In this document: positions 5,653-53,673 of the stretch, piece by piece | Layout: the number at the start of each line of letters is the position of its first letter | How positions within the stretch are numbered: position 1 is the first letter of the stretch | DNA from: Endomychus coccineus | Lineage: Eukaryota > Arthropoda > Insecta > Coleoptera > Endomychidae | Direction of reading: 5' to 3' | Assembly (NCBI GenBank): GCA_958510875.1 | Contig: OY294070.1 | Location: 9,610,001 to 9,674,000 of the forward strand | Length of the DNA: 64,000 bases | The notes under the pieces: generated by a model | Seen by the model: the letters and a program-made list of their open reading frames with translations, nothing else | What the model was told of the DNA's origin: nothing | The model's database searches: none | Translations under genes and position numbers: made by a program

Positions 5653-5660
5653 GATATAAC

Positions 5661-5729
5661 CATCGACATATACATATGAACTAGCCGCGCTTATCATTGC
5701 CACGCGCAGTACATATGTATATGTCGATG
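5661..5729. mobile_element. 69-bp palindromic mini-element with 8-bp target duplication
   Basis: The terminal inverted repeat catcgacatatacatatg is present at both ends, leaving about 33 bp in the middle. Identical 8-bp direct repeats, gatataac, flank it at 5653-5660 and 5730-5737. An 8-bp duplication is typical of hAT-superfamily integration. No coding capacity; it would depend on a transposase made elsewhere. Confidence 0.75.
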
Positions 5730-5978
5730 GATATAACTCTGTTGATCTAAGTGGATTTTGTCAACACTCTATATAGAATAAAACTAAACCACTGTTGTAC
5801 TCTTGATGCTCTTGATAGAATGTACAGTACACTTGCACTTTATTAGTGCCTTCTAACAAAAGGACTGTACGGTTCAAGAAACTAGGTGACCGGTGCTCTG
5901 TTAGAAGAATGTCAAGAATGTCACATGCAGTAGCAACATAGCGTATACTATCTCTCTTGTTTGTTTCTACTGTTTTTC

Positions 5979-16400: not shown

Positions 16401-19400
16401 ATCTGAAAAGAAATGACACTTTATTGTTGCCTCATTTTATGGTCTACAAGATGCTGCAATGAAATTGTAAATGTGATTTTTCATCTTTCAGAAACCATCA
16501 TCTTATTTTTTCCAGGTCTGTGACCTGGATTTTTTTATTCCATTTTTTTGGGCTCCCTTAAAGCTATCGCCCATGACAACCTTCGATTTCCAAACGCTTC
16601 GATGTCAAAAATGACATTTGATGGAGTTTTTTTAAATATTATCATACAACTCAGTTTCTCAGTGTCCTCTACCGGGTTAGTGCTCCCTCTTTAGTAGTTC
16701 ACGAGAATACTGGAGGCAATCCTCATATGATACCAGGGAATTCTGTATGGCTTATTGAAGGCATTAAGACCAAAAAAAACTAAAGGTGCTGGAAAAGTCG
16801 AGACAAAGGACCAAGGAGAAATAATTTCTTTGAACCTAGGGACACTCGCGACAGAATTCCAAACAAAAATAGTAGCAATTACAACATGTGCTTGAATTAT
16901 GAGAGAGAGCCTATGAAAATAGACAAATCACAATCATAGCGATCAACCTAGCAGTGCTAGTGCTCAAGGCACTGGAGTCATACAAAATCACCTCCCAATG
17001 TGTACTCGATTATGTAAAGAAGCCAAGGCCCTAGTAAAGAACCCCAATAAAGTAACACTCGCATGGAAGTCTGAAGAAATCAAACGCGAAGGGGCTGAAA
17101 CTGCCGTCGCACTCTATAATTACTTTTCATTAACTTTTAATATAAAATTTCATCAATATTATAAACTTTGACATTTATTTCACTGAAAAATGTCATTTAC
17201 ATCGAAGCGTTTAAAATCAAAAGTTGTGTTTGGCCATAGCTCAAAAGTAACAAAAATGGAATAAAAAATCCAGGTCCGTATTCAAAAATAAGTTGTTGAT
17301 GGTTTCTGAACGATGAAACATTGCATCTACGATTTGATAGCGTCATCTTGTAGAACATAAAAAGTGGCAAAAAATACAGGGTGTTCCATCTCAGACGAGC
17401 CACCCCGTATATTTCTTATCCCATAGTGAGTGGAAAGATCTCCCGAAACACGTCGAATGATTTTCTTTGGGGTACATCTTTTGACGTATATTTGAGGCTT
17501 GAACGAGCAACCCCCTAATAGGGGGCGCTTCAACTCCTCAAAATTGAATAGGGGAGAGGGATTGAGTAATACGTCATTTGAAAGGTATTGGAAGTCTCTT
17601 TACAACGGTGTATGAAAAACGTAAATTTGATGAACCGTTTTCGCCAAAAATTACTTTTGTTACTCGAATGCGCCGCCTTGAATATTTTGGTTATTTGTAC
17701 AATGTACGAGCTCATTCTCATTAAGCCTTTTTTACAAACTTAAACAATCTTCAAAAAATCACATTCGTAAAAAAATTGAATTGTGTTGTCATGCTTACAA
17801 TGAAAAAAATTAAATTTGCGTGTTTAAATCAAATGTTCAAATTGTCCTCCATTGCTTCCATACAATAATACATTCTCTCAAACTAATAAATAAAAAAACA
17901 GCAAAACATTTCCTTATGTTGCCTCCATTTTTTGTTCTTAGAAGGTGTTTATCTGGTTTTAAAGTTTCTTCGATCATTTCATGATTTTAATCAATCTGTT
18001 GAGTCACTACTTTGCTGATTTGTTTAAAATTTCAAAAAATATGGTGTACACATTGCAAGAACGTGTTGAGCTTGTTAGCCTTCATTACCAAAATCAAAAT
18101 TATGCCCGAGCGGCTGCAAGGATATTTAACGAAAACCATCCTGAACGTAGCGTTCGCCATAAGTACGTAATGGAATTGATTTCAAAATTTGTGGAGACGG
18201 GTTCAGTAATGGATAAAAAAAGGGCACCCATTGGAATTGTTAATGATGAAGGAGCAGCTGTGGCGGTATTGGGACATGTCCAATTTATGCCAAACACGCA
18301 ATCTGTCCGACAACTTTCTGCAGCTTCCGGTATCAGCCAATCTAACGTTTTCAGAATTTTACATAAACACAAGTTCCATCCGTACAAAATTAAATTAATT
18401 CAGGAATTAAATGATGATGATTGGGATCGAAGGCAAGAGTTTTGCGAAATTATGGTCGAGCGTATCAAAAATAACAACGTTTTCTTTTCTGATGAATGCA
18501 CTTTTTTACTTAATGGAGAGGTTAACCGGCATAACTGCAGAATTTGGAGCGATACAAATCCTCATGTATTTCGAGAAGCTCACACTCAACATCGGGAAAA
18601 GCTAAACGTTTGGGTAGGAATGTTGGGAGACCACCTAATTGGACCTTTGGACCTCTGTTTATTCCTGGTAATTTAAATGGCGAAATTTATCTTGAAATGT
18701 TGGAAAATGCGATTGATCCGTTAATAACTGAACAATTAGAAAACGATCCTCTACTACTTGAACAACAATTGCATTTCCAACAAGACGGAGCTCCTCCTCA
18801 CTACGCCGCACCAGTTCGCCAATACCTCAATTTGCAATACCCCGGTCGTTGTATTGGAAGAAGAGGTCCTATGGAGTGGCCTGCCCGATCTCCTGACCTG
18901 AACCCTCTGGACTTCTTCTTGTGGGGACATCTTAAGTTCACGATTTTTGTGACTCAGCTTGAAAATTTGGAAAAACTACGCCAACAAATTGTAAATGAGT
19001 GTCGTCAAATAACTCCAATTATGCTGAACCATGTTAGAGACGGTTTTCTGTCAAGATTGTATTATTGTATGGAAGTCAATGGAGGACAATTTGAACATTT
19101 GATTTAAACACGTAGATTTAATTTTTTTCATTGTAAGCATGACAACACAATTCAATTTTTTTACGAATGTGATTTTTTGAAGATTGTTTAAGTTTGTAAA
19201 AAGGCTCAATAAAAATGAGCTTGTACATTGTACAAATAACCAAAATATTCAAGGTGGCGCATTCGAGCAACAAAATTAATTTTTGGCGAAAACGGTTCAT
19301 CAAATTTACGATTTTCATACACCGTTGTGAAGAGGCTTCCAAGACCTTTCAAATGACGTATCACTCAACCCCTCTCCCCTATTCAATTTTGAGGGGTTGA

Positions 19401-22400
19401 ACGGCCCCCTATTAGGGGGTTGCTCGTTCAATCCTCAAATATACGTCAAAAGATGTCCCCCAAACAAAATCATTCGACGTGTTTCGGGAGATTCTTCCAC
19501 TCACTATGGGATAAGAAATATACGGGGTGGCTCGTCTGAGATGGAACACCCTGTATTAATGATTTTATAGAATTTCGTTTTCTTCCGAATATCTCCGTAT
19601 TTGACATTCTTTACAACACAATACGGCATTTTGTTGAGCATCAAATTGTGCAACTTCACGATAATTTAACCGACCCTGCATCTCTTACCGTTTGGGCCCT
19701 TCCGTATAGTCAATATTATCGTCTTCTGTCAAAGTTTCAAGAGGTTTTTCCACGTTTTTACTAGCTAATTGAACTGGGTCTACATCATTTTTATTTTTAA
19801 TGGATACGTATGACTGATAATAGATTGAAATTGGAACCTCATTGGACAAAGTCTGTTTTTTCTTACAATTCAACAAAATTGTGTAATTCAGGACCGTACA
19901 CCCGTACACCGTATCATCAAGCCCTCAACTTGCTTGGATTATAGTGTTCTGTGGTGAAGATTAAATGAATGATGATTGATGATACTATCTAATCATTATA
20001 ATACCGAGAAATATTTGTTTTAACGTACTCTCACCTGAAGCTCCAAAGCTGGGTCGTGGATCGCTTGCGCTATTCGGTGAGCATGTTGAAAACTATCCAG
20101 GGCCTTATTAAATCCAGCTAATTCCAAGTAAACTGATCCTACTGTCAGATGTACGTGTCCGGCAGTAGCACATTGTTCGCATTCATTATACAATGAGTGT
20201 CTAGCGTACGCCAAAGCCCTGAAATTGTTTCATAAATATTGGGTTTTATCGCTTATTGCACATTACATTGCCGGCAGGGGCAACTTCATATAACTGAAAT
20301 GTATTCACATACTAGATGCAGAGAAATACAGCTCATACAGATTCCTATTGTGGTAACTATATTGATCGTGTATAACTCTACTAACAAAGCAAAAGTCAAT
20401 AGTCAATCTAATCCACGAAGGAAGAGAAGGTTTCTTTAGATCTCTAGATCTATCAGTGACACCATAGCAAGATAGTTCCGGGTAGCTGTTTCGCCTTCTT
20501 GGGCTCATCAGCAGAATGAGTGAAGCTGTAGTGTCAATCAGTCAATCAAAGCGGCGGCGGACAAGTTTAGTGCCCTTGGAGAATACAAGGGCAAGGTGAA
20601 AAGTCTTTAACTAGAATGCATTAAAATTTTCAGACTGATATGTCATTCAGTTCCGTTTTGACACCCATCGAAAGCAAGCAACCTCAAGATTTTCGTAAAC
20701 ATGGAAAAAAAAGTTCGCGCCTCGATGGGCTCCATTTTGGGCATTTCCGTACAACGCTACAGTACATACCGAAACTAACTACACGAACTAGTTCTCGGGA
20801 AAAGGTTTGTCTTACCTTCGGAAATAACGAAAATCGAGCACTGCCCAATTGAGTTAAAATAATAATAATTACAATAAGCTTGTATAGAAGTTAGAAACAA
20901 TTTAATAACATTAAAATTAAAAGGTACCGAAAAGTTAAAAACATAATTGTAATAGTGTTAAATTTAAGGTAGGAGATAAGGTACATATGACAAATAATCC
21001 TAAAAATAAATTAGAACGGCTCTACAAGGGTCCTCTTACAGTTTTAGAGGAAATATCCCAAAATTAAGAGATATAGAATTACATTTTCTGAATTATGAAG
21101 ATAACAATGAAACTTTGGTGTCTAGTCCAGTGTGTTTACCAATTACACAACTTTGGTCCCGTCAGAGCCTTATATTTTTGTAAATATAAACTTCGGAAAG
21201 GATTGTAGATCATTGATGAACACAATGTGATTCGATGCTCCGCTATAGATCAACAATTCACGCATATTCATCTAAAGTTCAATCGTTTTAAATTGAGGAG
21301 TGTAGGTATGAGTATTACTATGGTTGGCAATTACTCTGACTGTACTCATTTAATGACTGCTTCCTGGTTCTTACAATATTTCAATAGATTTTGATTTTAA
21401 TAAGCGATTTTGAATTTTGTAAAATTAGTGGAGTAAATCTGACAAATGGTTGGCGAAAATCTTACGATGCTTAGCGACTCGGTGGAAAATGTTTGTTGTG
21501 GTACCAACAACAACGCCCTGAAATTTCTATTTCCCAAAGCGGGTGCAACTCCTTTTTTTTGGCCAAAAAGTTTTTTTTTGACATTTTTGAGGGTAGTTTA
21601 GCAACAAAAAATTAATATCTCCGGTTGTATTATGATTTTGGAAACCAAAGTAGAACCTTTTTATTGTCAATGTCCAAGGAACTTCCAGTCCGAATTTCAA
21701 GTTGATCCGACCTCCCCCCTCCCCGTAATAAATATATATATACTCATACATACAAGGAATCTTGCGTAACGGCTAACTCGGTCATTTTTCAATCGAGTTG
21801 GCTGAAATTCGGATTAAAAATAGGTATTATGGTCTCAAAACTACTCTCTAAATTTGAAGTGAAAATATTGGATGGTTTTTCAGAAATTAAATTTAAGTCA
21901 ATTTTTTAGTTATTTTCCAAATTAAGATATCTCATGTCATTTACATCCGATCGGGATCTGCTTTGCGAGCAAATGTAGGTATTCGCATATAGTTTTATGT
22001 CATGGAACTTATTTTTTAATTATTTTCTTTCCGGTCTATGTTGGCCATTTTGACTAATTTGAGATACATGGAATGACGTTCACGTGAGGAGCGCGTAACT
22101 GGCGAGTTAAAAAAGTGCAAACTGGTTGTACCTAATTCGGCTTTACGACGTCTTTTCGCGTGCCGTTTTCGCTCCATGTAGTAGATAAGGTATCGGAACG
22201 TGCCCGACGGCCCTTCTTTTTTCGATAAATGTCCATTAAATAGAAAACTTTAATTAAAATAGAAACAGTACTCTCAGGTCTCAGCTACGAGCGTCTAACG
22301 TGCGACGTACCAAAGGGAATTTTCTAGCTACTAAAATATACCCGAAGCGGGTAAAAGTTAGCGGCCCACAGCCGAAAATACTCTATTACAACTGGCGCCG

Positions 22401-25400
22401 CCCGCACGGGGCACGAAACGACCTCAACATAACAAGACCGAGGTAAAATGTATAAACTCTAACTGACGCGTTGCGAGCTTCTCGAGGGAAACGTCAAAAT
22501 GATTACGTTCGTAGCTAATTACATAGGACGTCTGGCGTTCATGCAATTGTGTTTTTATACAATTTGAACCTTCTAATTTCGATAGGCCACGTGGAAATTC
22601 CGGAGCCTAAAGCACTATCAAATTCTGAGTCTCACAATATTCGTATAAAATTGCGAAATTTCGCACTGTTAGAAACTTCAAATTAATAAATTTGACACAA
22701 GTTTTGGGGATATTAATACCGAAAATAAATGGCCAGTATAGGCCGGGAAAAAAGTAAATAAAAAATGAGTTTCATGACATAAATATATATGCAAATACCT
22801 ACATTTTCCCGCAAAGCAGATCCAGATCGGATGTAAATGACATGAGATATCTTAATTTGAAAAATAACTAAAAAATTGACTTGATGTTGAATTTCTGAAA
22901 AACTATCCAATATTTTCATTTTGAATTTTATAGGGTAGTTTTAAGACCATAATTCCTATCTTCAGCCCAAATTTCAGCCAAATCGGTTGAAAAATGACCG
23001 ATTTAGCCGTTACGCAAGATTCCTTGCATATATGAGTATATATAAATATACATATATCTATTACGGGGAGGGGGGAGGTCGGATCAACTTGAAATTTGGA
23101 CTGGAATTTCCTTGGACATTGATAATGAAAGGGTTCTACTTTGGTTTCTTAATTTTCAATACAACCAGAGATATAAATTTTTTTTTGCTAAACCACCCTT
23201 AAAAATGTCAAAAAACCCCTTTTTGGCCAAAAAAAGGAGGTTGCACCCACTTTGGGAAATACAAATTTCAGGGGGTTTTTATTGGTACCCTAACAAACAC
23301 TTTCCACCGGGTCGCTAAGCATCGTAAAATTTTCGCCAACCTTGCCTTTTTTCTCACCAGATTTACTCCACTAAATAGCACATTGTCAGTCGAAATGTCA
23401 TACCTCCTTTCATTGAAACCACTGGCTTGATGGATTAAGTTTCGGTGCTTTTAGGTTCATACTAATAACCATGAATTTATGTGTTTCTATGATGATTGAG
23501 TGAGTCTCTTTGATAATCAGTAGAAGTTAATTTTGATTTTGTTAGTCGGTTCCTAGATGCATCAGTTTCAAATAAATTAGTCCATTTCGTTCTGTTTTGG
23601 GCTTTTTCAACAATGATTCTAGATTCAATTGTTGATCCATATATTTGTCTTAATGCATTGTGAGGAAATTCAATTGTATCGAGAGCTTTATTCAATATAG
23701 TAATTCAGTCCTTGTAGATTCATTTCATTTGGATTACACGTGATTTATGATGCACTTATTTGTTGTAAAGTTCAAGAATAGCCGCTAGTTTTGTAAACAG
23801 TCCTTACCTTTCTAATCCGCCTAATCTCTGATGTGCTCTGGCTAAATTTAAGTAAGATTCGGCTCTCATGTTTGGATTGTCTAGTTCTTCCGATATAAAT
23901 AGTTGACGATGAGCGTATTCTAAAGCGTCTCTGGAACAATACAAGGTTTACATTGAATTTTTAGAATTATTTAGGAATTATGCTGTACGCTTTTATAATT
24001 AATTCACTCATAGTATTATACAGGTTGATTCATAAGTGAGAGAATTAGAAACAAATGAATCAATATATGACTATACTCATTTACCTCATGTTGGCTTTTG
24101 ACAGATAACAATGATAAGATCTTTCTAGTTCAGATCGATCCGTAAGATCCCAAACTTATAGTTCCAGACAGCTGTTTCGCTCTGCTCGTTGAGCTCATCA
24201 GTGGAACGAGTAAGTTTGCAACGTTACTGAAAGATCTCTGCTGAAGTTAGTCATAACCAGTCTAACGCATGGTGAAAGGATCAAAAGTATCTCACGCCAT
24301 CTATGAATAGATGTTTCAGTGAGAAATCAAACAATGTACCACATTGACTGATAGATTTCTCGAACTTTACTAAAGTTACGGGGAATGTGAGACTATTTTA
24401 CTGCACCAGATGGCGACACCAAACCAAATCAATTTAAGATCGATCTGAACTAGAAAGAATGTACCATTTTTATCTGTACATGTCATCACGAGATAAATGA
24501 GTATAATCTTACATTAATTTGTTTCTAATTCTGTTATATTGGTTTGTTTTGGTGACGCCATCTGGTGCAGTCAAGTAATCTCACATTCCAGGTGTCTGGA
24601 ACTATGAGTTTGTGAAGTTACTGATCCATCTGGACTAGAAGAACCTTATCATTGATTCATAAGTAATAGCCCAAATTCTAACTGTACATTCAGAACACAA
24701 AAATAATAATATTTCACTCAACAAAAATGGATCTTAGTCTGCTCCACACTCAGATACAATTGAAAAAATGAAATACATTTTTGTTAATAAATCAGCCATT
24801 TTTATAGATATAGTCATGAAATTGGGTTAGGGTTTTCTATGTGACGGCAAAAAAGAATGGTGTTATTAAATTAGAGTGTAGTAGTGAGTAGTGAACTCAT
24901 GTACCTGCAAAATGATGTGAAATATCAACACATTGGATGATAAATAAATGGCTTTGCAAAAAATTTTTTTCTCATGTCTGAAATATACTTAAATAATGAC
25001 CGAGCTGTATATCACAACCCATAAATAGTCGAAGAATTATAGCCAAAATGATCGAATTTTTTACTGGCAACCTGTATCGAGATGCGGTTTTCGCCATTTG
25101 CTTCAGAAACACAATAGAAAAAATGTTACATATTTGTTTTACCAGGAAAAGCTTGGTTGCATTTGTGCATACAAAAAATGCATCTAAATCATGCAATTTG
25201 CTGATCTGTGTAAATATTATATTATCGCTCATCAAATATTGATTAAAATTGGCCAGAATTTGTTACTCGGGGGTTTTTGGGGTCGCTGATTAGGAATTTG
25301 ATGTTTTCATAATGCCAAGCTGCACCCTGGGGCAGATTTCAGGGACTTGGGGTGGGGGATTTGCAATATAAAGCGGAAATCCTCAAATTTTCTCAATCAT

Positions 25401-28400
25401 TCGGTATTTTATGACAATTTTGGGATTTTTAAACCCAAACTAAATGATGTTCGTTAACTCAAGTGCCCGGGGCAAAGTGGGGCAATGTGGGGCACTTGAG
25501 ACTATTATCGAATTTCGACCATCAAACCTAAAAACCTTGTTCTCTGGGGTTTTGTGGTCGCTCAACACGAATTCAAGGTGCATTTTCAGCTCAGACGCTC
25601 CTGGGGTAGAGTGTCCTCTGGGGCAACGGGGGCATCTGGGGCAGTAAACCAATTTCAACTGTTGAACATCAAAACTTCGTTACCCATGGGTTTTCGTGGT
25701 CGCTCAACACGAATTCAAGGTGCATTTTCAGCTCAGACGCTCCTGGGGCAGAGTGTCCTTTGGGGCAACGGGGGCATCTGGGGCTGTAAATCAATTTCAA
25801 CTGTCGAACATCAAAACTTCGTTACCCATGGGTTTTTGTGGTCGCTCAACACGAATTCAAGGTGCATTTTCAGCTCAGACGCTCCTGGGGCAGAGTGTCC
25901 TCTGGGGCAACGGGGGCATCTGGGGCTGTAAACCAATTTCAACTGTCGAACATCAAAACTTCGTTACCCATGGGTTTTTGTGGTCGCTCAACACGAATTC
26001 AAGGTGCATTTTCAGCTCAGACGCTCCTTGGGCAGAGTGTCCTCTGGGGCAACGTGGGGCATCTGGGGCAGTAAACCAATTTCACAAAAACCCCTGGGTA
26101 ACGAAGTTTTGATGTTTGACAGTTGAAATTGACTAACTGCCCTAGATGCCCCACGTTGCCCCAGAGGACACTCTGCCCCAGGAGCATCTGAGCTGAAAAT
26201 GAACCTTGAATTCGTAATCAGCGACCCCAAATACCCCCGAGTAACAAATTCTGGCCAATTTTGATCAATATTTGATGAGCGACAATATAATATTTACACA
26301 GATCAGCAAATTGCATGATTTAGATGCATTTTTTGTATGCACAAATGCAGCCAAGCTTTTCCTGATAAAACAAATATGTAAAATTTTTTTCTATTGTGTT
26401 TCTGAAGCAAATGGCGAAAACCGCATCTCGATACAGGTTGCCAGTAAAAAATTCGATCATTTGGCCTTTTTACGGCTATATTTCCTCGACTAAAAGTGTG
26501 CAGTCATCTGACTTAAGAAATCATTCCTGGCACACTTGTAGTAGATTTTTGTACCTATAAAACGAGGCCATACATGACATATGAGAAACCATGGGGAATA
26601 AAATTTAATTGACTTTAGATCGCCAACAAATCCCTTGAGAAAAATTTCACCTAACATTTAAATCTTTGGGCGTGGTAGCCCAGTTTCGAGTTGTATTTTC
26701 GACATCCATCTTCAGTTTTTCAGAATTATAGTATCTTATTGAATGTATATACGTTTGACTACGGAAGATGGGAACAAGGGTTTCCAATTTAATCTTCATT
26801 GAATTCTTAGTCACGATGTCTTTTTAGAGAGGTAGAAGATATCAATTCATTCTTCTACAAAATGATTGGATAGTTTGAATGATTTCAAAACTTACCCCCC
26901 GCCCGAATAAATTAATTTGCTTTTTGTGGTCAGGCTATTGGTTTTAGGCAAAATTGTCAAGACACAAGAAATGTTTAACATTGTACCTACTTGGCACAAA
27001 AGAATTTTTTTTGTCAGACTATTTTGTCTCGTCTTTGAGATATGACTTCTACTATGTCGGGTACTGTGTAGTGGTTTTCTAATACATATTCATATATTTT
27101 ACACATTAATGTGTTAAAATTTCAATTATTCGTGTTTCGTTCGTTGTTGAGACGTAGACATTTTTAATTGAAATTAATGCGATAAAGACCCTCAGTGCTC
27201 AGTACGATTAGTTTAAAAGATCCCGCGCTTTAATTGATGGAATTAGTTTTCAAACGTCTTCTGATTATGGTCAAGGTACCGAAACGTACCTAATGACGAA
27301 AATATAGTTGACGTATGTGTTAATGCTGTTTGAGTCCACTGCTCTTTAATTAAATCTTAGAGGAAGTTCTTAAACAAAACAATTGGCTTCAGCTCGGAAT
27401 TTGATTGATCCATTTATGAATGAAAATAGTACTCGCCTGCCAATTAATGAGATCAAGAGTCGAAAGGAAGTATTAACGTTCTCATACATATTGTAATATA
27501 ATGAATCAATGTTATTTGCCTGATGTATGTAATGGCTCTTTCGTTTGGAGCGGAATATATGCCTACAAAATGAACAGAACTGAAATGAATTGAATTATCC
27601 TGTCACTGCGAATGTAAATTGTGAAAGACTGATTGTGCAACATCCAGAGTATGGTCTAATTTCAGAATGGAACTCCAGCAGATAATGAACAGTCGATAGT
27701 TACGATAGATTATCGCATCCACTTCTCTATCAATGTATTCTAGTTCTCTTCAGATGCCCGCCGAGAGGAAATTAAACCCTAGGAAATTTGAACCGACAGT
27801 AAAGTGTCTTGAGATAAGATTGCACGTTAGAAGCGAACTAATGAACGACTTGCTTCACTTACTAATAAATTTAGAGCTCCCTAGTTCCACACAATATATT
27901 GTTCAATCATAAATCTATAGGGTTTCATCAATGCGCTAAGGGTCTAAGGGAATACGGCATATTTGGTATTGCTTGTAGTTTGTTTAATGAGGTCGTGGAG
28001 ATTTCGATAAAAGCACTGCATTTAGAACAAATATTCTCATTAAACAAAATGCTATTTGGAAATGTGAATAGGTATACTAGGATAACTAGGGTGACTTAAG
28101 ATGTTTTTTGTACTAAAACTAATCAATCATTGATTTATTACTTACTTCCACTATACAGGTACGTAGTATACGGGAAGTATTGAAATTGGGAGAAACAAGT
28201 TTTCCGGACTTTCGTGGATATTATAGTTTTGAGCATTTCTGAATCTTTCTAGACTATTTTTGACATGATGTGTGTGTGTGTTTGCACGTGCATGTGTGCA
28301 TGCGTGCGCCCGCGTCCTAGCCAACTGTGGAGACGATTACGCCGTTCTTATTGGTCCCTTTAAAGTGGTGAAAAAAAAGGAAGTGTATTGTTTTGGGCAC

Positions 28401-31400
28401 GGTAGTCGCATTTCGAGTATTATTTTTGGTATCCATCTTCAGCTTCTCAAATGGAGTTATAGTATTTGATTTAACCGTAATGGCAACATACGCATGAATT
28501 TGAATTGGGATCGAAGAAAATCTTATCTGGATTACTGACATAGTTGCATTTGCAGTTCGGTACACGACACTTAGGCATTCTAATATAAAATGATACAAAA
28601 TATTAATGATAAATTTTCTCACCCAGATCTACATATCGTAAACAAAACTGATGAAACCTTCCGAATGAACGATAAAACAAACCATTCATAACACTAAATG
28701 CTACACGTCTAATGGAAGCAAAATGGTTGTCTGAGACACTAAGTACCTGAACAACACGCCATTTTATTGTCACAGTTATCACTTCACACAATCTCTTTTT
28801 TATATACTTCGACTACACGTGAGTAAAACCTACCCAGCCTGCTGAGTCTTTGGCCTCCATACCATCGAGTCGTATGCTATCATGGGTTCGATGACCCTGG
28901 TGTATAGCCATGTGCTCATCTTTGGTTGTAACCCCCAGATTTGTCCACACATTTTTTTGCATAGGCTAAGGGCTATCGTGGTCTTTTGGATTGTTTTCTG
29001 TAGGTGTTGAATCCATGACAGCTTGTGATTAATAATAAATCCCAAGTATTTTGCTTCTTCTACAATTGGAATTCCTACCCCATTCAGAACTGGTGACTTT
29101 AGTCCTCTCACTACTTTGTTTCAGGTAGAGACAACTGTAGTGGTTTTGGGAGATTTTACGGTAAGTTCCTCCTAATGGTATCACTTGTTAATCAGATGGA
29201 GTTCTCTCCTGAATAGAATACAAGAGCTTCAGCTTATGTTTGGCAGTTGAATCCCAATCATGCGAACAGTACTCCAGGAGAGGTCGAATCTGTGCTTTGT
29301 AGATTATGAGGTGCTGCTGGGATGTAAAGTAGCTCTTGGCGCACTGGATACAAAATAAATTTTTATGAGAGGGTGCTGTTGATGGATCCCGAGCATGGAT
29401 ATGGAAGACTTCGTAGGAATAGTTGTACCTGACATAATCATATTAGGAATTCTGGGATCTGAATTCTTGGAGAAGATGCAAGCTTGAGTTTTGATTTCGT
29501 TAAACTATACTAGATTACCAGATCCCCATTTCAAAATCGTTGCCAGATCTTCATTACTTGTTTCAACCTGTCTCTCTCTCGCACGTCTGGCTTCATTGGA
29601 TGGTATAGGGATAGGGGCTCTAGATGGGAAAGTGGTATGAAGTGTACCATCATCTGCAAAGCTGTGGACAGGACAGATGGTCACTACCAACAGATCGTTG
29701 ATATGGAAGCAAAGTTGATGCCAAGCAAACACCACCTGGAGTGATCTATCCCGGAGAAAACTCGATAGTAAGCGACAAAGTTGAGGCGGCCAACCATATG
29801 ACGGAAAATTCCCAAGAAGTCCTTGGTGTCAGACTTTCTCAAATGATTTGGACATGCCCAATGCTACAACTAATGTAACATGTATCGCGTAGGCAAGCAG
29901 GTTTCCTGTTGTTCTCTGCTGCCGGTCATTCACGATTTTGGAACTCTCTAGGTATTGGATGAGCTCAATGTTGATTGCTTTCTCCATCACTTTAGAGATC
30001 ACAGAAGCAATGGGTCTATAATTATTACAAGGGTTTTCCTTATTTTTTTTTGGAATTGGTTGAACTCAAATAGAAAATTAGTTCTTTATTCTGTAAGTAG
30101 AATAGATTCACCGACTGACGACTGAGGAAACACATACTGCATTGGAAGACTTGCACAAACTGACTGCAATATGTAAATATCATGTTGAAGGTACACCTCA
30201 TGCGGTTCAGTCAGCCCGACTCGATCATATGTTTTAGATGCCAACAAGCCAAGATACCGGCCTTCCATTCGAGTAGGCTATGGATTAAATTATATTAATG
30301 GGTTGATTGTTGTTGCATTCTTATGAGATGAGGATTGGGCTGGGTTGGTACAATTGACCACCTCAAAAAAATTGCTGTTTGTATTTGGTTGAATTGTTGA
30401 AGAGATTACCATATGCTTCAGCACTTTCAAATTTCAAATATCGATTACAAATTCGATTAAAAGAAATATTATTATTGTAGCTCAACTTATCGTAATACAT
30501 TGTGGAAAGTTGCCGAGGAACTTTACAATATTCACGATCTTCACTTGTGGGAAATGTCGGTAATAATTTCGCATAAATATTTCAACTCCACTGTAGTGCA
30601 TGCAATGTAGACGTGTTCGCTTTCTAGATGTAGTATCGATCCAAGCTTGGCATGTAATGTGAATTTAGAGCGAAAAAAGTACCATTACCACCCTGATATC
30701 AGACTCAATGCACCGGAGCTACATTAAAACTTAATTTCATAAAGTTCCCAACCGCTAGAACTTTCGTAACGAACGTTATAACTTGCCGAATTTCTCCTTT
30801 TTCAACATTAAAATATGCGAGAATGTTTGATAATTAGATCCGCTGGATTTGGTAGAGAGGTGAAACGAAAACGTCAAATATCGTGAGATTTACTTCAAAA
30901 CTTGCAATTCATCTACCGGAGCTACGTCGTGTGTATTCAGCGATAATTGAAATAAAACAAGCAGAAGGAAATTATGATCCTATTCAGAGAAGAGTTACGA
31001 TTACATTTCAAGACTGTTGATTCGCGATGGAAGTAAATCGCGAGGTGAATGGAAATTAAAGTATTATCTCTTAGGCTCAAAATTCGCAATATAGGTTAAA
31101 CTGTACTGAGTATTTTTGCCTTCCATCTTCAGTTCTGATTACGAATAAGATAAGATGAATAAATTAAAAAAAAACTGGTAGAAGCCGTTACTCTATTGTA
31201 ATTTATTATTATGATTAACGAACAATTACTTTGTTTATCAAACAGATACAGAATTATGAAGTAAATAATAAACAATTCAAGAATAAATAGGAACTAAAGT
31301 ACAATAGGGCTAATGAGATTATAATTGAGAGTAAGGAATCCCGAAAAAATTCAGTGTTGATTAAAAACAATTTGTGCATTAGGTTAATTATTATTTAACA

Positions 31401-42800: not shown

Positions 42801-45800
42801 TCAGGGATTTCTTTTCTTCGATGAATTTTCGGCAGTATACGAATTTTATATTACGTACTTGACTTTGTAATTTGTACCCTCGTTGCACGTTTCTTCCAGC
42901 TGATGGGGTCCTCAGATCTAATTTGTCTGCCGCAAGGAACGTGAATTAGCATTTGCTGCGTCTTAGTGGGATGACGAATGACCTACGAGGGAAATGACAA
43001 ATATTCCCGGTCTCACTACGATTGACTTCTAATTAAATTTTATTTTTCAATATAGTGCCATAAAGAAAATTAGAAATAAATGAATATATGAATATACTCC
43101 TTTACCTCATTTAGGTTTTTGCCAAATAACAATGATAGGGTCTTTTTTGTCCAGATCGATCAGCAACGTCACATACTAGAGGTATATACAGTCCTCCAAT
43201 GTGTGAAGGAAAACAATCGAAGAGCCATCGAAGATGAGCAGATCCACATATTGACAGACAGTCAGGCTGCACTTAAGGCAATGAGAAGTCAGGAAGTGAC
43301 ATCCAGTCTGGTATGGATATGCAAAAAAATTAAAACACTGGCATAGCGAAACCGCGTTAAACTGATCTGGGTGCCGGGACATTAGGGAACGACAACCAAT
43401 GAAAAAGCCGACGAAGTCGGAGGACGCTTCAGATCCTAAACAGACCACCGGGGTACCAAAACGTACATCACGAAGGTCCGTAAAAGACTGAATCATGGAA
43501 CAGCACAAAGAATACTGGAAAAATCTCAGGAAACGAACATGGGAAGAAATACATCAAAGCCCCGTGTAACAAAAGAACGACGGACCTATTAGTACTAGAT
43601 AGGGAGAAATTAAAGGCCTTAACAGGGCTCATGACTGGCCATGTGCCAGTGAAAGGGCACCTGAACAAAATGGGACAGTACAATGGCGACCTGACATGCA
43701 GACTTTGCGGTAAGGATACAGAAACAGTGACACACATACTGTGTAAATGGGAAGCACTGGATCGCAAAAGTCAGTCAATTTTCGGAAAAGCCTAACGGCG
43801 AACCAGAATTATACAGTTACCACCCAGGAAAGGATTTGTACAAACTCGTATCAGGTACAAAAATACTCGAGTGGATACCGTAAGGAAACAAAACAAAGGC
43901 GAGATACAATGGACCAGCAGGCCTAAGTGTCACCGGAGGCAATAGCCAGACAAGCCTACAAAGGGGCTGAAGTTTTTAGTGAGTATGCTTGGAATGGTGA
44001 CTCTCATAGTAGACCATAAGACCCAAAAGCTTATAACCTCCCCATACAGGGTTTTCTTCACCTCCACAAAAAAAAAGTCACAAACTTATAGTTCCAGACA
44101 GCTGTTCCGTTCTTCTCATAGAGTTGATCAGTGGAACTGAACTATCTCTGTTAAAGGTGGACATAACCGGGCACAACATGGTAAAAAGACCAAAAGTAGA
44201 TATCCCACTAAGGAATCAAACAATGTACCACATTAACTGATATATTTCTCGAACGTTACAAAAGTTATGGGGAATGTGAGACTACTTGAATTCGTTTGGT
44301 TTGGTATCGCCAAAGAGGCCAAATTCCTTGGACTGGAGGCTAGCTACGAAAATAGCAAGGCCAAATAGAATTAGGTGGAGCTATAAATAAATTCCAAACA
44401 CACAAATCTCCTGGAGAGTATCGGGTATATCCCATCACACTCCAAAAGGGGCAGGCAATTCTAGTTCCATTTCTATGTAGAATATTTAAGGCTTGTATCG
44501 CTATTCGACTTATACTTACTGAGTGGCATTTATATACCCAAGGTGGGTAGACTTAAAGACACGACGCCAAAGTCATAACGACCAATTAGTCTAGTGTCCT
44601 CCCAGCTTAAAATACTGGAAAGACTAATAGACAGATTCATAACAGAAGAGGTTTTATCAACAAACGCCAATACGCTTATCAGCCAGGTAAATCAACAGGT
44701 TTGGCACTAGGTGATCTTAACGGGCTACTAACAATCCCTCGAGGATAAAGAGATAGCTATTAAGACGTTTGTCCACATCAAGGGTGCCTTCAACAATGCA
44801 TCAACAAAGCCAATTACAAGGCTCTAGACAGAAAAGGGGTTCTCATTCCTTCTGCGTCAGTGGATAAACGCTAGTCAGGAAAAAATGATAATCATATCAT
44901 CAATCGGCGCAACCACAGTCACAGTTAAAGCTGGTAGGGGATGTCCGCAAGGAGCAGTGTTATCACCCCTCTAGTGGATGAACTATTGATAAGGCTAGCA
45001 TCCAAAGCCATTTACTGCTTAGGGTATGCCAACGACCTTGCGAGTATCGAGATAGGAAAATTCGCATGAACAGTATCGGAGCTCACACAAACGGCTCTAA
45101 ACATGATAAACAAGTGGTGCCAACAGGAGGAACTTGCCGTAAAACCACTATAGTTGTCTTTACCAGAAAGAAAGTACTGAGAGGACTAAAGTTCTCTAAT
45201 AATACAAATATAACCAGGGAGAATTATTAAGCATTTCAATAGGATATCGTATTTCTTATATTTATTAATTTCTAGATATTCTAGCAAATTCAATTTATTC
45301 TGAATGTGTAAAATCTTGAAATTATCATTAAAGTTTTGGTTTTCTATAAATAAATGTTCCTGTATACTCCGAAAGATATTCAATTGCAAATGTTGAATCT
45401 GTTGCCATTCAGGAACATGAGGAATATATTGTGGATATGATTTATATATTTTTGGTATTGAGAATTCCATGCTGTTTTGCAAAATTAAAGACCACCGCTA
45501 AGGAGCATGCCCAAATATAACATATAAAACAAAGGGCTGGTAATGTTGGCCCATTTTTAATGGCGTTTTGAAATATAATCAAGTGAAGTGATTGTTATTA
45601 CTTCAGGTGTGCTGGATCCAACGATGATGATTGCAAATGATGGAATGTTTATTGAACCCACTCATTTATATTCTCCAAACTTACATTCGAATTCCTAAGA
45701 TTGGTTATAAGGTTTTTAATTTCGCTTGCTTACCTATATTTTCCCCAGTCGATATAAGCCTGATAGAGGTATCCCAATAAAGTGAATTTATCATCTCTTT

Positions 45801-48800
45801 TCTTAATTACTTTTAAAGCAGATTTCCATTTTCTTACAGCCTGTTGTTGTTTGTGTTGATTGTACAGTTTCACTCCTTGTTCCACCTGGAACAATTGAAG
45901 AAACAACTCAGTTAATCCAATTTCAGTACATGCTTTTCAAGTTATCCTACGTTCACTTAGTTCAATATATGTGAAATTTGGGCTTAGGTTGCTTCTTTCG
46001 ACTCTAATAGGTTGACAATGTTCCAATTGGTCAATAAGTGACTTTTCAAATATCGCGACAATAGAAATTCACTAGAGACCCGCAGTTGGTAGCACTGTAT
46101 TGCAGTGGCGGCTCGTGAATTTTTGAGAGAGGAGGCTGGACATAAAACGTTTTTGTAAAAATATACTCTATTCACAGCCTTTTTTGCACAGCGACCGTAC
46201 CAGCTACTTCAGTGACAAAATTAATTGTTACCCAGCAAGAACCAACGTGGAGGTATAGAGTTTCTCTTGCCAAAACATTTTTTTGTTCGTTTTTTGTCTT
46301 TTATTTTTTTTGGATTTTTAATATTTTTCCTTTTTTTTGGAATTTTTCATATTTTGTTTTTTTTTATTAATTTTAATAACTTTTTTTATATATTAACGGA
46401 ATTCTAAGGTCTTTAGTTTGCGAAAAATAATCAATAATATTATCAAAAAATGTATCATTTAGTTTTAAGTGTCTTACCAAATCTTTTTCAATAGATATTA
46501 AACTAACATTGTATAAACGATTTTGGCCCATTGTATTGGTAAGTTTTAATTCGTTTGAGAGTAGAAAATGATCTCTCCACCGATGCCGACGTGACAGAAA
46601 TGGTGACTGTCAAATAAAGTAGTTTATAAAACTGAGGTTTTTTATCATATCGGCGTGACTGTCATACTGGCCTAAAATATCTTTATCCGAGTATATAACG
46701 CATAATTCATTGTGCCGTGCTATTTTATCAAAAAATTTATATTTTAGAACTAAGTTATCTTAAAGTGTATTGGGGAACTTTTTTGAAAAAGATTCGAAAA
46801 ATCTTCTATTCGTCAAGTCAAAAAACTTCAATTCATGTAAATCGGAAAATCGAATCTCAATTTGACCTTTAATAGTATCTAAAATTTCATGAAAAAGTTG
46901 TTTATAATGTAGTTTCTTGTCTACCGAATTATATGTTTTCCTCCTTTTCGCGGGAGGAGCCTCATCAGTTGAAAAATTTTCAAATAAAATATTAAAATGA
47001 AACTCTGTATTACGGAAACTTGAAATTTTTCCAATGAGATGTTTCAAACGATCTCTTGAATATATTATATCAGTGAATTTATGTTGTAAAATTTGAAAAA
47101 TAAGATCAGTTTGTTCAAATATTAATTTAAAATTGTCAAGAAAAAACAAAAATTCTTCATTCTCTAAATAAGATTTTAAACCAACAGCAGCATTTAATGA
47201 AACCTGATCTGTTGAAAAGTCATCACTGTTTAATACAAAATCAAATGTTTCAATTAATTTGTCTTTATTTTTATGGATGGTAAATACTGCACGTGATGTA
47301 AAATTCCATCGAGTTGGAGCATTACAGGGAAATCAATGATTTTTTTTTAAACTTCGTCTTGTCAATACTACTATTAGTATTAACAACGATCGATTTTGAT
47401 AGTTACCTGACATTACTAATCCTTTCAAATCCGGTAAAGGCCGTTTAATTAAAAGAAACACTTTTATCATATGTTAATTCACTAAATGGATTTTCTAAAA
47501 GGCAGCAACTAAGTCACTAACACTCATTTTAAATTTACAACAGACAACAATCTAACCTTACTTCACGTGACGTGACAACACATAAACAAGCACTGACTGA
47601 CCTACTCAGCAGTTGGCAGAACGCACGTCTCGTATTTCATAGATTGCTAGCGGCTGCCGCAGGCTAGCCTCCAGAGGGTGTTGCCATTTCAACTGATTTA
47701 CCCAGTTGGCGTTCGGACTGGTCGGAAAAACGGCAACTGCGTTGAACAACACATGCTCAGCGTTTGAGATATATAGAGAGTCTAGCCTGAGGGCACTGTT
47801 GCCAGATTAAAAATAACTACTGAGAACGGGGAATTAATTGTAAAATTTTAAAAATTATCAGTGAAACAGGAAATAAAATGGAGAATGATCATTAAGATAA
47901 ATTGGTGAGGAGGCTGAGCCTCCTTAGCCTCCTTCGAGGAGCCGCCACTGCTGTATTGGGTAAACGCTGTTCACGTCATGGCTCAAGATCAGCCATTCTT
48001 GTGAGGTTGAGCAACAAACAAATAGACGTAGGGGAGGTCAGAGTGAATTGTAACAGAGATTAAATGTAACAAGCCTCATAACACTAGTGAGAAGAATTTT
48101 AAATTTATCGCCTAAATGACACAATAAAAAGACCTTCAACGTGGCCATCCTTTTGTCGTTTCCTCCACATACTTCACATAAGCTTTAACCATTAGATAGA
48201 GGTGTTTATAAACCGCTGAAGGTATATATAAAAGATTTCATGGATGCTTGAATGAAAAGCCACCCTGGACTAACGATGACCATATACGATTTGCTTGCTA
48301 TTGTTCTCCAAGCTATTCCATTGGCAATAACACCAATAACATTAAGGGAGGATTCAAAGTGTCTGGTGTTCTTCCATTCAACCGTGGCGTTTTGGGAGAC
48401 TATGAGTATGCTCCAGCGTCTGACACATATAGGCCAATGCCACCCAATAATGAGCAGCAGTTAGCGTATGAAGAAAATGAGTCAGTTCCTTCTGTTCCAA
48501 CAGAATATGTGTCTTTCACACAGAAGGTGCCTCTTTCACCTATATCGAAGATAACGCGGCAGTTATTTAAGAAAATTGGTTCTAAAAATAACCAACAATG
48601 ACGTCATTTCTTTCTTAACGCGAACAGCGTTTATCCGATATATCGTTAAAGGTTGCTTGTCCTAGGGTACGTACCTTCCGCTTAGCTATTCTATGGTGTA
48701 TTCTAGCCCTGCAAGCTCTGAAACAGCCCCAAGTGAATATAGGCTGTCTTGGTGTTCTCACTTCTGTATATGTGTCTCTGTGTAAACTTGAGTATGAACT

Positions 48801-48915: not shown

Positions 48916-51789
48916 CTGAAACAGAAGAGAGTCTATATTATTCTCCATGAAATATCTATGGTTTGGACTTTTACGTAGTGTAAAATCATTTTATCTTTCG
49001 AAAATTGGAGATTTAAACTCAAATTTGCCCATAACTTGTAACACTTAACTTACAAATAATGCTGACCAATTGTTTTACTACACATGGCATTCTCAAAGCC
49101 AGGACTTGTCAACTAAAGCTAAACATAAAATTATATCCTCAAATTAGAAATCATCATAAAAATTAAGAAACCTCACAAAGATACTTGTGCCCAATGCAAT
49201 AGGCTTCAAATGCTTATCAAAAATTAGAAAGGTGCAGTCGTCGAAGAATTCAAAAATAAATTGCAAGATCACTAGGTGTAGGCTATGATAAGACAATGTC
49301 TGCGAAAGAGAAGACCCGCTATTGCTTCTACAAACGACAGCTCTGGGTGTTCAATTTCATCATGCGAGAATTAAACTTGAAGCAGTGTTTTTGTTTCATG
49401 TGGCATGAGGCCATCGGAGGGCGAGGAGCAAATCAGATAGCCTCATGTATTTACTAACATTTTAAGAGTACTTCTTTGGATAAGATCTCAAAAATCAATT
49501 AACACTCGGATACATGGCACGTACTTATACTGTTTTCTTTGCTGATGCAATTGAAGCCATCACTATCCGGGTCACACTCATTGGAATGTGACTCGTATCA
49601 TTTAGTCATCAAGAAAAAAAAAAGGATCCTATTCCTATAGAAAATCCTCGAGATTGGGTGCAGTTGCAGTCATGTGGAGTTCTCATTCCTTCCATGTGAC
49701 TGAATTGGCCCGAATGACTTTACTTTTCAGCACTTCTAAGGTAATATTTCAGCCAAAAACTGATATGAGTGGCATCTTGGAGAGATATCAAATGGTTAAG
49801 GTATACTCAGGAAATAAACACAGTAGAATATAAGACTTCTTTATATGAGGGTTAATCGTTTAAAAAGATATCGTTTATGGGAAAAAGAGGTTTGCAACAG
49901 ATACCTGTTATTCCTTTATCTTTATCTTTATCAGTTCCAATAGCAGATGAAAAGAAAAAAAATCTCCTGTAAATGCTTTCCTATGTTGATGCAGCTTTCC
50001 ATCCATTTTACAAAAATCTATTTGCAAAGTCCACGGTAGCTATTGACGCAATAATAAGTGATGAGAGTGCAAGTGAACAAACAATAATAATGTTATTATC
50101 TTTAATATTTTTGACGCTTTAAACCTCGTTTTTATTGTAAAAGGGTACAAGTCCTTTTTTCTGATTAAATGAAATATGTAAAATGGTATATGTTAGATTT
50201 TTTTTCTGCCTGAAGCATGTTGAAGAAATTTGGATAGCACAGCCCGGATGAAGTGTTTTTGAACTATTGATTATCATAATAATTAAAAAAATTGTTTAAA
50301 AATTCCTAGTGAATAAATTTTGTACTTATACCCTTTCCCCCGCCGGACAGCCAATTGTCTACACAATTAATAACAATTAATTATAAAACATACTTACTAT
50401 CGCAAAAATTCCTGAGAATGCAGACTTTCCCAAGACATTTCTATCCTTAATTGTCTATTAACTATTAGTTTTAAATATCACGAAACTATTTCATACAACG
50501 AATAACCCAATATATTTCGAATGTTCGTTTTTTTATTTCATATATTAATTTTTTATTAACATTCATTTTCGTTGATATAATTTCCATGAAACTTTATATA
50601 TTTTAATGTGAATATTAATATATTGAGTACATCCCCGCTTTCGCGAATTAATTTTTGTGAATCCATATCCGTATTATTTTATATATTTTCAACAATTTAT
50701 AAATATTATTTTTTTATATGTATATTTTAATATGTTTTATTATTTAATTAATTGATTAAATGTATATTTAATTGAATTAAATTAGTTGGTGCTTCATTCT
50801 TTATAGAAATAATTATCCAACTTTTATTATATCTTAAATTAAATTGGTCAATTTAACTAATGTGAGCTTTTGAAAGATTCGAATATAATTCACTATTTAA
50901 TTAATGTTAATTGGTTATAGTTATATGATTTGGAAGTAGGCCAGTTCACTTGGTTTTTGGTTAGAGTTAATTAAAGATTATTTAATAGCTAGTTGAAACA
51001 CAGACGTTGCAGCACCGAACGAATTTGAATTATAAAAATATAAAAAATACAATTATTTACACATATTCGATAAACAGAAACAGCTAACACACCCCTCTTA
51101 TATTGTACAGCAGCATCCCTATGCTTGATCTGTAATCAAATGGTCGAGAATTCTCGTTGCAAGCCGGGTAGGTTCGGGCTCGCCGGGATAACATGAAAAG
51201 AACAACTTTCCGAGTTCCCCTAGACGTTAGCGATGGAAGTTTTAAATCCGCAACAAGTAAGAAAACCGTGTTTCTTACTTTGGTTTGCTGAAACTCTCGA
51301 GTGCAGGGATGAACTTGAAGTCCAATTGATTCGCAATAGAAAAAGTAATTATTCGAAAATACATTGGGGAAATGTTCAATTACTTGTTCTATGGATGAAT
51401 TTGCGTTTTATTTTTGTTTTATTGAATGAGTAATTCGATTCGAAGTTACTTTTTAACTTAGTTTTCAATCGCTATATTTGAATTACTCGACGATCCAGGG
51501 TTTGTCGATGGAATGAAATTTAATGGTGACCGAATTGCACGATGGTATAGGAAAGTGCCCAGGTAGTATTACTAAGAAAAAACTTATTAAGTAAATCAAA
51601 TATGCACAAATATACATCACGGATCAAATTATTTTTACACTTGAAACAAGTTAGTTTGATTTATTGTAATTTGACATGCATTTTACTTAATCATAACGTG
51701 AAATCATATTATTTTTATAAGTTTCAATCAACTTTTCCAATTTTACACATCGATAAACATTGTACATTTGTTCACCATGTCGGAGCTGT
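48916..51789. other. Upstream region of rapsyn exon 1, very AT-rich in part
   Basis: No coding exon recognised. 50100-51000 is extremely AT-rich with many TTAAT/ATTAA strings. The missing rapsyn start exon and promoter could lie here or farther right; no confident donor plus ATG combination was found. Confidence 0.3.
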
Positions 51790-51796
51790 TCATTTT

Positions 51797-52695
51797 TATA
51801 TACGAGGGCAAGGTGAAAAGTTCCTGAAAAATAAAACAGATGGCGCCACAACCGAAAATCCCATGTGACATTTGTGATGTACCATCTTTAAATAGAACGC
51901 CTTAAACTTTTCACTGATATGTCATTCAGTTCTCTTTCGACACCCATCGAAAGCAAGCAACCTTGAAGATTTTTTTAAACATGGAAAAAATATGAATTTC
52001 GCGTCTTAATTAAACATTATTTCTTGCAAAGGAAAAAACGTTAGGCAAACCAAAGCATCGCTCCTCGAGTGGTTTACAGATTTCTGGTAGTATGAGGTAG
52101 TACAAAGGACGTCGAACATCTTGGCCGTCCGATTGAGGTTTCAACGCCAGAAATCGTCGACAAAATCCATGGGCATCTCAATCGAACGACACCAAAGAAC
52201 AGTCGAAAGAGTGAACTTGTCCTGGCGAATCGAACCCGAAAAAGGCCAAAGTGGGTTTATAGGCCAACAAAGTCATAGTCACAGTTTTTTGAAATGCACA
52301 CGGTATCGTCCATATCGATTACCTTGAAAAGGGCTAAACGATTAACGGCGTATATCATGCAGAGCTGTTGAATCGACTCGACGCCGATTTGAAGCGAAAA
52401 CGGTCGCATTTGGCAAAGAAAAATGCTCTTCCCCCAAGAAAAATTGCCAAAAATGTGCCACACATTGGTTCATTATCTACCATATTCTCCAGATTTGGCC
52501 CCCTGTGATTTTTATCTATTCTCAAACTTGGAGAAATGGCTCTGCGGAAACAGATTTGTCTGCAACGATGAGGTCATCGCTGAAACAAACGTTTATCTGT
52601 CGTTCTAGCCAGAATGGAGGATTCGGCCCATATATTTGGAGGAAATGTTGCAGATTCAGTGATATAAGTGTCAGGAATCGTCCAGATTATGTTAG
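51797..52695 (+). mobile_element. Mariner (mos-type) remnant with decayed transposase
   Basis: It opens cgagggcaaggtgaaaagtt and carries a mos-type transposase in pieces: GRPIEVSTPEIVDKIHGHL, a KRLTAYIMQ-like segment, then HYLPYSPDLAPCDFYLFSNL with the third Asp in SPDLAPCDFYLF and RFVCNDEVIAE. The second catalytic Asp block (HDNARPH) is destroyed by rearrangement. Dead. Confidence 0.78.
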
Positions 52696-52729
52696 CAAAA
52701 TCCTGCAAATCATGCATCATTCTTCCCTT

Positions 52730-53170
52730 CCTGATCCAGATAAGAAATTTCTGATCCCCCATTGTTCACGAAGCCCCCGACTATATAGTTTCTGCAAGAC
52801 CATTTCGTTGAAAAACTCTAAACCCTAAAAGTTGATCCATGCAATTTGATCGTCAGCTTCGACGCCGAATCACTCTTTACCAATGTTCCCATTCCAGACA
52901 CCCTTTCCATAATTTCTCAACCATTAGCAAAACATAATTTTGACACTAAGCATCAAATCCTTTTCGAAAATACTAAAACCCTAGCCCGAATCCCAAACTT
53001 CTATCAGCGAAAAATTCTCGAAGGGATAGAAATACTGGAACATCAAAATAATGTAATCAGGGGCTTCAAACTTTCCAGTCTTAGGGCCAAGGGCAAAAAC
53101 AGTTTTAATTTTCCTGCCAGTGTCTATATACTTGCTACATTGGCTAGTTCAATTAATATTGTGTACTAAC
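52730..53170 (+). mobile_element. Penelope-like retroelement remnant
   Basis: The plus strand reads VDPCNLIVSFDAESLFTNVP, the hallmark RT block of Penelope-like elements (SFDV-SLFTNVP), followed after a large deletion by IPNFYQRKILEGIEILEHQN and RGFKLSS, which resembles the stretch at the end of the GIY-YIG endonuclease. Penelope-like elements often carry hammerhead ribozymes in their terminal repeats, which is relevant to the motifs at 24 and 44 kb, although no direct link is visible here. Confidence 0.72.
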
Positions 53171-53673
53171 TGTACTTTATTGTTAAGACCGCGACACTTG
53201 ACGACACCTGGTGATCACCCGCGGAAATAGGTAGTACCACTGTAGTACCCTTTATCGCAGTTAGTGCTAGTAGTATTTTGGGAAGCGCAGTAGCAATTAA
53301 GCATTCGCGAATAATCTCGTTGTTTCGAGAAAGTTCTGGTGTATTCCACTTACTTCTAGATGGTGGTAATTGGAGTATAAGTAGGCTAGCGGCGCTACCG
53401 CGAGTCGGTCTCCTAGGGAAGGTGAAGGAAGCGAAATCCTTTTGATATTGACATTGAAACCATAGCCCCGGAACTTCAAACGGAAATTATTGATTTACAG
53501 TGTAGTAATATAATTAATATGCTGATATGTTTATGTGTTTATATGTTAGAATGTTTATAATGTTTGTGGGATTCATTACAATTATTTGTTAGTTATTATG
53601 CTTAAGTTGAATTTTCTGAGTATTATGCTTGTCATTAAGCTTTATCTCCCAAGCGGGCCGTAGTTTCTAAACG

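Follow-up and report, generated by a model that had tools for sequence, protein, structure and literature searches.

A hammerhead ribozyme in a rapsyn intron of the beetle Endomychus coccineus belongs to a dispersed family of probable non-LTR retrozymes

Introduction

One intron of the rapsyn gene of Endomychus coccineus contains a hammerhead ribozyme motif, oriented in the sense of the gene. Does this motif act on the transcript that carries it, or is it part of a mobile sequence? We analyzed the stretch of 64,000 nucleotides that holds the locus (hereafter the window) and searched the genome of the same beetle (906 Mb, 129 contigs).

Metazoan non-LTR retrozymes are described as units of 170–400 nt with a type I hammerhead and low GC content, present in tandem copies and coexisting with Penelope-like elements; their target duplications exceed 4 bp, and insects are named as carriers (PMC7229834). 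In that account, Cervera and de la Pena (2020) consider Penelope-like elements a strong candidate for retrozyme mobilisation because of the shared type I hammerheads, the tandem copies and the coexistence (PMC7229834). The route by which retrozymes return to animal genomes is the question addressed by the insertion ends mapped here.

Results

Hammerhead motif

The motif and its predicted cleavage site were located as follows.

24151–24218, minus strand: type I hammerhead ribozyme, with a stem I of 8 + 6 bp, a stem II of 4 bp and a palindromic mini stem III (core letters, Rfam, fold and descriptor)
24166–24167, minus strand: predicted cleavage site between C17 (24167) and 24166, placed relative to the conserved core

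Read from 24218 to 24151, the core runs CTGATGA...GAAA, and the conserved CUGANGA...GAAA...UH letters and three stems are all present. In stem I, 8 + 6 bp flank the internal loop CTC/TA; the 4 bp of stem II (GCTC/GAGC) close a loop of 8 nt, and stem III consists of the palindrome ACAGCTGT. Every element named in the initial annotation (CTGATGA, GAA, C17, the 4-bp stem II, the 6 + 8 bp stem I with CTC/TA, and the self-complementary stem III) was recovered on the minus strand. The hammerhead fold has a predicted energy of -21.8 kcal/mol (z -2.5), and 2 of 200 shuffled sequences folded equally well.

The covariance-model search that the annotation had proposed as a check gave a significant match that is nevertheless below the family threshold. 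The best family in Rfam cmscan was Hammerhead_HH9, which we take to be the group of amniote intronic hammerheads (C10orf118/RECK), with 38.1 bits and an E value of 4.3e-8 for 601 bases or 4.6e-6 for the 64-kb window. This score lies under the gathering score of 52, so that a default Rfam search of the region lists nothing. The HH9 cut-off is set for one vertebrate-type family and is no defining trait of the hammerhead class.

The score below the cut-off might point to a chance resemblance. Against this stand the E value for the window and the full descriptor (all core letters and stems), which was found at a single place in the window and at 1 place in 200 dinucleotide shuffles; moreover, the motif has a family of copies with pairing stems, described below. 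A chance resemblance therefore retains a negligible probability and is refuted at the sequence level, at which the hammerhead at 24218–24151 is real.

Rapsyn gene

Three rapsyn exons are supported by the Pfam and protein matches of the joined exons and by phase and splice letters.

45734–45885, minus strand: rapsyn exon upstream of the hammerhead-holding intron
23808–23930, minus strand: rapsyn exon downstream of that intron
20035–20218, minus strand: next rapsyn exon

The three (45885–45734, 23930–23808 and 20218–20035) are in phase and have AG/GT splice letters. Further exons on the minus strand reach down to 7.3 kb, and one exon, in the interval from about 15.87 to 14.23 kb, could not be located. 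Exon ends were set by eye throughout, those of the three above being then checked for phase and splice letters. The joined protein, which misses that one exon, scored 91.2 bits against Pfam Rapsyn_N and 29.1 bits against a RING finger, and the best of 146 proteins was a beetle protein with 85% identity across the whole query. Whole-frame Pfam and PDB scans of 18500–28499 found no family and only TPR chains (E 0.48–0.79), rapsyn being missed until its exons were joined. The hammerhead lies in a 21.8-kb intron in gene sense; the next exon begins at 23930, 236 nt beyond the predicted cleavage site. Both the assignment to rapsyn and the gene-sense position about 240 nt before the acceptor, as initially annotated, are thus confirmed.

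The same intron contains a 1.5-kb fold-back repeat (25026–26492) whose arms are 93–97% alike and which holds tandem copies of about 142 bp; an Rfam MIR5070 match at 26033–26175 (67.9 bits, gathering score 100) falls within it.

Structure of the insertion

The hammerhead is embedded in a composite insertion with the following parts.

24038–24651, minus strand: whole composite insertion of the putative retrozyme, 614 bp, an upstream inverted partial unit and then a complete direct unit (inverted repeats I1–I5, direct repeat D2, self-BLAST and like architecture elsewhere in the genome)
24041–24437, minus strand: one full unit of 397 bp in direct orientation, read in the same sense as rapsyn; its GC content is 37.5%, no frame stays free of stops for more than 42 codons, and it served as genome query
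24438–24532, plus strand: inverted arm part 1, unit positions 298–397, 80% identity to 24140–24041
24534–24589, plus strand: inverted arm part 2, unit positions 1–56, 88% identity
24589–24654, plus strand: inverted arm part 3, unit positions 264–329, the hammerhead 3′ half and the start of the tail; 83% identity, pairing with 24174–24145 in the predicted fold
24025–24037: right copy of the target-site duplication TTGATTCATAAGT, a 13-bp direct repeat
24652–24664: left copy of the target-site duplication TTGATTCATAAGT

Within the inverted arm, a single base separates the aligned piece that ends at unit position 397 from the one that starts at position 1, which is the junction that a tandem or circular template would give. 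Neither a stop-free frame above 42 codons nor any reverse transcriptase or GIY-YIG sequence was found in the 397-nt unit.

Dispersed family of units

The hammerhead belongs to a repeat that has other copies in the window, a point that the initial annotation overlooked. An older copy lies in the same intron.

44078–44287, minus strand: older copy of the 397-nt unit, first half, with a mutated hammerhead core; 69.7% identity over 251 columns, no Rfam hammerhead match
43064–43177, minus strand: older copy, second half; 79.7% identity over 118 columns

A 900-bp insertion (43178–44077), with a T-run at one end and LINE-like by eye, splits this copy. All three of the three insertions in the window are in gene sense, which is too few to show a bias.

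Searching the genome with the 397-nt unit gave 4181 first-look candidates. The best-matching 40 of these were scored and all matched, in 84 pieces; apart from the query, they showed 79–86% identity over the main piece. The 35-letter core pattern with at most 2 mismatches occurred at 729 places in the genome, compared with 0 for the reversed pattern, and 61 places, including the rapsyn copy, carry it exactly. In the 30 loci that were fetched, 11 of 40 hammerhead copies keep the core letters, and the rapsyn copy is one of them.

The stems were defined on one copy, and their pairing across the family was compared with slid controls. Outer stem I paired in 270 of 311 cells (slid, 119–156 of 307–313), inner stem I in 208 of 232 (slid, 15–114 of 232) and stem II in 128 of 152 (slid, 45–72 of 151–152). 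Between copies, conservation was 0.839 over the whole length of the hammerhead versus 0.816 for the rest of the unit, with blocks ranging from 0.67 to 0.92; the most conserved 20-nt block, positions 261–280 (0.922), lies inside the hammerhead.

Among the 30 loci, units are arranged both head to tail, with junctions of 397 to 1 (for example, L012, L023, L027 and L029), and head to head, and inverted arms recur. A crude test found exact direct repeats of at least 10 bp at the ends of 3 of the 30 loci (13 bp at rapsyn, 11 bp at L022 and 10 bp at L015) and none of that length at the other 27.

The genome pattern CTGATGA-N10-GAAAC was tried as a hammerhead count and rejected. It is mostly one repeated motif, apparently coding sequence in the six loci viewed, and so says nothing on hammerheads; Rfam found no hammerhead in the five of eight such loci that were scanned.

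Second family, RZ2

The next rapsyn intron holds a member of a related family.

20441–20536, minus strand: related hammerhead repeat family, here named RZ2, with a mutated stem III (stem pairing; Rfam HH9 14.6 bits, not significant)

RZ2 gave 283 candidates in the genome, of which 40 were scored and yielded 42 matches, spanning only about 96 bp around the hammerhead. Its outer stem I differs from that of the 397-nt unit family, yet still pairs (68 of 80 cells; slid, 12–34 of 80), as does inner stem I (41 of 45; slid, 7–33 of 44–45). The two families have in common a stretch after the cut, ACTGATCGATC, that was equalled in 0 of 5000 shuffles. An RZ2-like hammerhead repeat (75%, E 1e-8) also occurs about 1.1 kb from a Penelope-like copy at L062:3445-3525 (minus strand).

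Penelope-like element and insertion ends

The window contains a relic of a candidate mobiliser, as a separate insertion.

52822–53166, plus strand: decayed Penelope-like reverse transcriptase piece with the motif FDAESLFTNV

We take this piece to be Penelope-like by its motif; a Pfam scan of 50000–54999 called only a mariner transposase and did not call the relic. The genome has an abundant element with FDVESLFTNV and YVDDTF, presumably a Penelope-like reverse transcriptase, for which the search gave 16988 candidates, 150 of which were scored. A hammerhead-like motif is also present in this element, CTGAAGA...GGCGAAACGTC, and it differs from that of the unit. At L039:3310-5140, a retrozyme copy adjoins a broken Penelope-like copy in both orientations, with reverse transcriptase and GIY-YIG pieces recognized by eye.

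The 3′ ends of both elements fall into two clusters, which take 55 of 74 unit ends and 27 of 29 Penelope-like ends. For the unit, 74 pieces of at least 41 nt, taken from the best-matching 40 of 4181 candidates and not independent within one insertion, ended at unit positions 315–340 in 18 cases, at 385–397 in 37 and elsewhere in 19. Counted from the cut, these clusters lie at +44 to +69 (18 of 74, of which 11 fall at +55 to +59) and at +114 to +126 (37 of 74). The Penelope-like ends, counted after removal of duplicate loci, of the reference and of three pieces that stop short of the cut, lie at +52 to +61 after that element's own cut in 14 of 29 cases and at +87 to +97 in 13. The proximal site therefore coincides, at about 57 nt after the cut in the unit and about 56 nt in the Penelope-like element, whereas the distal site differs (about 126 versus about 89).

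An upstream inverted piece was present in 16 of the 30 unit loci. Its outer end is fixed, at unit 315–337 in 12 of the 16, while its inner junction varies. Of 7 long stretches of the Penelope-like element (L060–L066), 5 likewise carry its 3′ region both forward and inverted. A tail sequence common to the two elements was not significant, since 241 of 5000 shuffles were as good.

The similarity of the insertion architecture and of the proximal 3′ end raises the question of whether the unit is simply the pseudo-LTR of an autonomous Penelope-like element, with no separate retrozyme. A Penelope-like coding piece does adjoin one unit copy (L037/L039). However, the abundant Penelope-like element has a different hammerhead-like motif of its own, and the unit found no significant match in 20 Penelope-like loci or in 7 longer, partly overlapping stretches (best E 0.25). 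Furthermore, at the 397-to-1 junctions one unit passes into the next without intervening coding sequence, and the longest stop-free frame is the short one given above. We therefore consider the pseudo-LTR explanation improbable.

A LINE, or some other reverse transcriptase, could also have moved the retrozyme, and twin priming would then account for the inverted arms. LINE twin priming also produces 5′ inversions, and the distal end of the unit is unlike that of the Penelope-like element, with tail sequences not demonstrably shared. In contrast, a fixed outer end combined with a variable inner junction implies that synthesis starts, on either side, at a set position within the RNA. Starts of this kind have been reported for a Penelope-like enzyme, which extends the two strands of the target (PMC11167929). 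Mobilisation by a LINE or other enzyme is thus unlikely, although clearly less so than the pseudo-LTR explanation. We favor Penelope-type mobilisation as the likeliest reading, in which we infer the enzyme and observe the insertion architecture directly.

Folding of the rapsyn copy

When the unit was folded alone, the hammerhead was predicted to form, with stem I pairing at 0.98–0.99. Adding 24538–24654 lowered stem I to 0.00, its 3′ strand now pairing with 24589–24612; the advantage of this masked fold over the best hammerhead-retaining fold is only 7.4 kcal/mol. When the 11 copies with an intact core were folded alone, 5 gave an inner stem I of at least 0.8, the rapsyn copy folding best of all, and 6 stayed at or below 0.11 even without an arm. 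Two of the well-folding copies, the rapsyn copy and L016, have an arm that covers the 3′ half of the hammerhead, and both lost stem I. Three well-folding copies without such an arm (L013, L023 and L034) keep it; the arm of L034 misses the hammerhead. In gene-sense insertions, the inverted arm is transcribed before the hammerhead.

These predictions suggest that the upstream arm pairs with the hammerhead 3′ half and probably holds the ribozyme inactive at equilibrium. Given the margin of 7.4 kcal/mol, the ribozyme could form first during transcription, and some co-transcriptional cleavage may occur.

Discussion

Rapsyn insertion as a probable passenger

The initial annotation regarded the motif as a special intronic ribozyme that might affect splicing. 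This is not borne out, as the hammerhead is one of hundreds of dispersed copies and the inverted arm is predicted to remove its stem I. On the corresponding explanation, the hammerhead has been domesticated: it would cleave the rapsyn pre-mRNA and modulate its splicing, a role that has been proposed for the intronic hammerheads of amniotes. The core is intact, in gene sense and 236 nt before the exon; the rapsyn copy is among only 11 of 40 that retain the core letters and folds best of these, and the most conserved block of the unit lies inside the hammerhead. Intronic hammerheads are also known in human C10orf118 and RECK, as described in PMC3088659. Nevertheless, 61 places in the genome carry the core pattern exactly, conservation over the whole hammerhead (0.839) is hardly above that of the rest (0.816), and the arm is predicted to mask the ribozyme. 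We consider domestication very unlikely. Because of the predicted masking, a passenger is expected rather than a regulator of rapsyn, and the insertion most likely represents a tolerated, passive passenger in rapsyn pre-mRNA.

Taken as a whole, the locus is in our judgment probably a copy of a non-LTR retrozyme with a unit of about 397 nt, copied in the Penelope manner and carried passively by rapsyn under the mask of its inverted arm. As part of this joint reading, and with the same probability, the hammerhead would be the processing ribozyme of a small, non-autonomous retrozyme of the metazoan non-LTR type.

Model of mobilisation

In the mechanism that we propose, unit RNAs would be released from multimeric transcripts by the ribozyme and then circularised; this step is known in other animals and is transferred to the beetle here. 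The abundant Penelope-like reverse transcriptase would copy the unit RNA from internal starts about 57 and 126 nt past the cut. Priming on both target strands would account for the head-to-tail units and the head-to-head arms, and also for the defined outer ends and the duplicated target.

A more general proposal, to which we give slightly less than even weight, is that animal retrozyme circles are re-inserted by Penelope-like enzymes that start internally about 57 nt past the cut and prime on both target strands, and that the resulting arm can mask the new copy. Since it would start internally, such an enzyme would need no free RNA 3′ end. If this is true, the head-to-head arm could mask the ribozyme of the new copy, and some insertions inside genes would be born silenced. 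A self-masking arm would be a simple way for a gene to tolerate the insertion of a self-cleaving sequence into an intron. The fixed 3′ ends and two-sided insertions make the proposal of Penelope mobilisation testable, both with genomic ends and with purified enzyme.

Comparison with known systems

The beetle family resembles the metazoan non-LTR retrozymes, so far as these are characterized in PMC7229834, in its type I hammerhead, one per unit, in its 397-nt non-coding dispersed unit without LTR at 37.5% GC, in its multiple and tandem copies, in its target duplication (13 bp here) and in the presence of Penelope-like elements. It differs in that most insertions are single or partly doubled and have head-to-head inverted arms. 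Two fixed 3′ ends are mapped here, and neither the beetle host nor the family sequence appeared in the literature examined.

For the Penelope-like element PAc of the green anole, two internal starts with a tail between them are reported, with a cut 26 nt into the ORF and starts at 111–118, and its enzyme extends both target strands (PMC11167929). Subtracting the cut position from these starts gives +85 to +92, which is near the distal end of the beetle Penelope-like element. PAc, as presented there, thus shares with the beetle unit the two internal 3′ end sites with a tail between them, a hammerhead shortly upstream and the extension of both strands, whereas the beetle unit is non-coding, has a long two-part stem I and ends distally at +126, not near +89.

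The amniote intronic hammerheads of C10orf118 and RECK are the best Rfam match and have the same core, identical stem II pairs, an intronic location and gene sense; in the description of PMC3088659 they are single conserved loci, in contrast to the rapsyn hammerhead, which is a copy of a repeat. The pDo500 hammerheads of cave crickets are likewise insect repeats, but are presented as a satellite family (PMC2808323), while the beetle family consists of dispersed insertions with inverted arms.

Insect retrozymes and hammerheads of Penelope-like elements are already known. A search of open-licence papers found no beetle retrozyme family, no rapsyn-intron copy and no mapping of retrozyme ends tied to Penelope-type priming; no paper there paired a hammerhead with rapsyn, and no beetle-retrozyme title was among the matches listed. 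Within that literature, the beetle family, the rapsyn copy and the end-mapping appear to be new.

Other features of the window

A long, near-perfect palindromic hairpin at 5654–5736 gave weak matches to miRNA families under their gathering scores. Two direct repeats of 127 bp with 100% identity lie at 53674–53800 and 54051–54177. The mariner-type transposase match (PF01359, Pfam scan of 50000–54999) covers 52188–52418, and related pieces were found at 51800–52006 and 20583–20722. A repeat is common to the region upstream of this match and the rapsyn intron sequence that adjoins the RZ2 copy.
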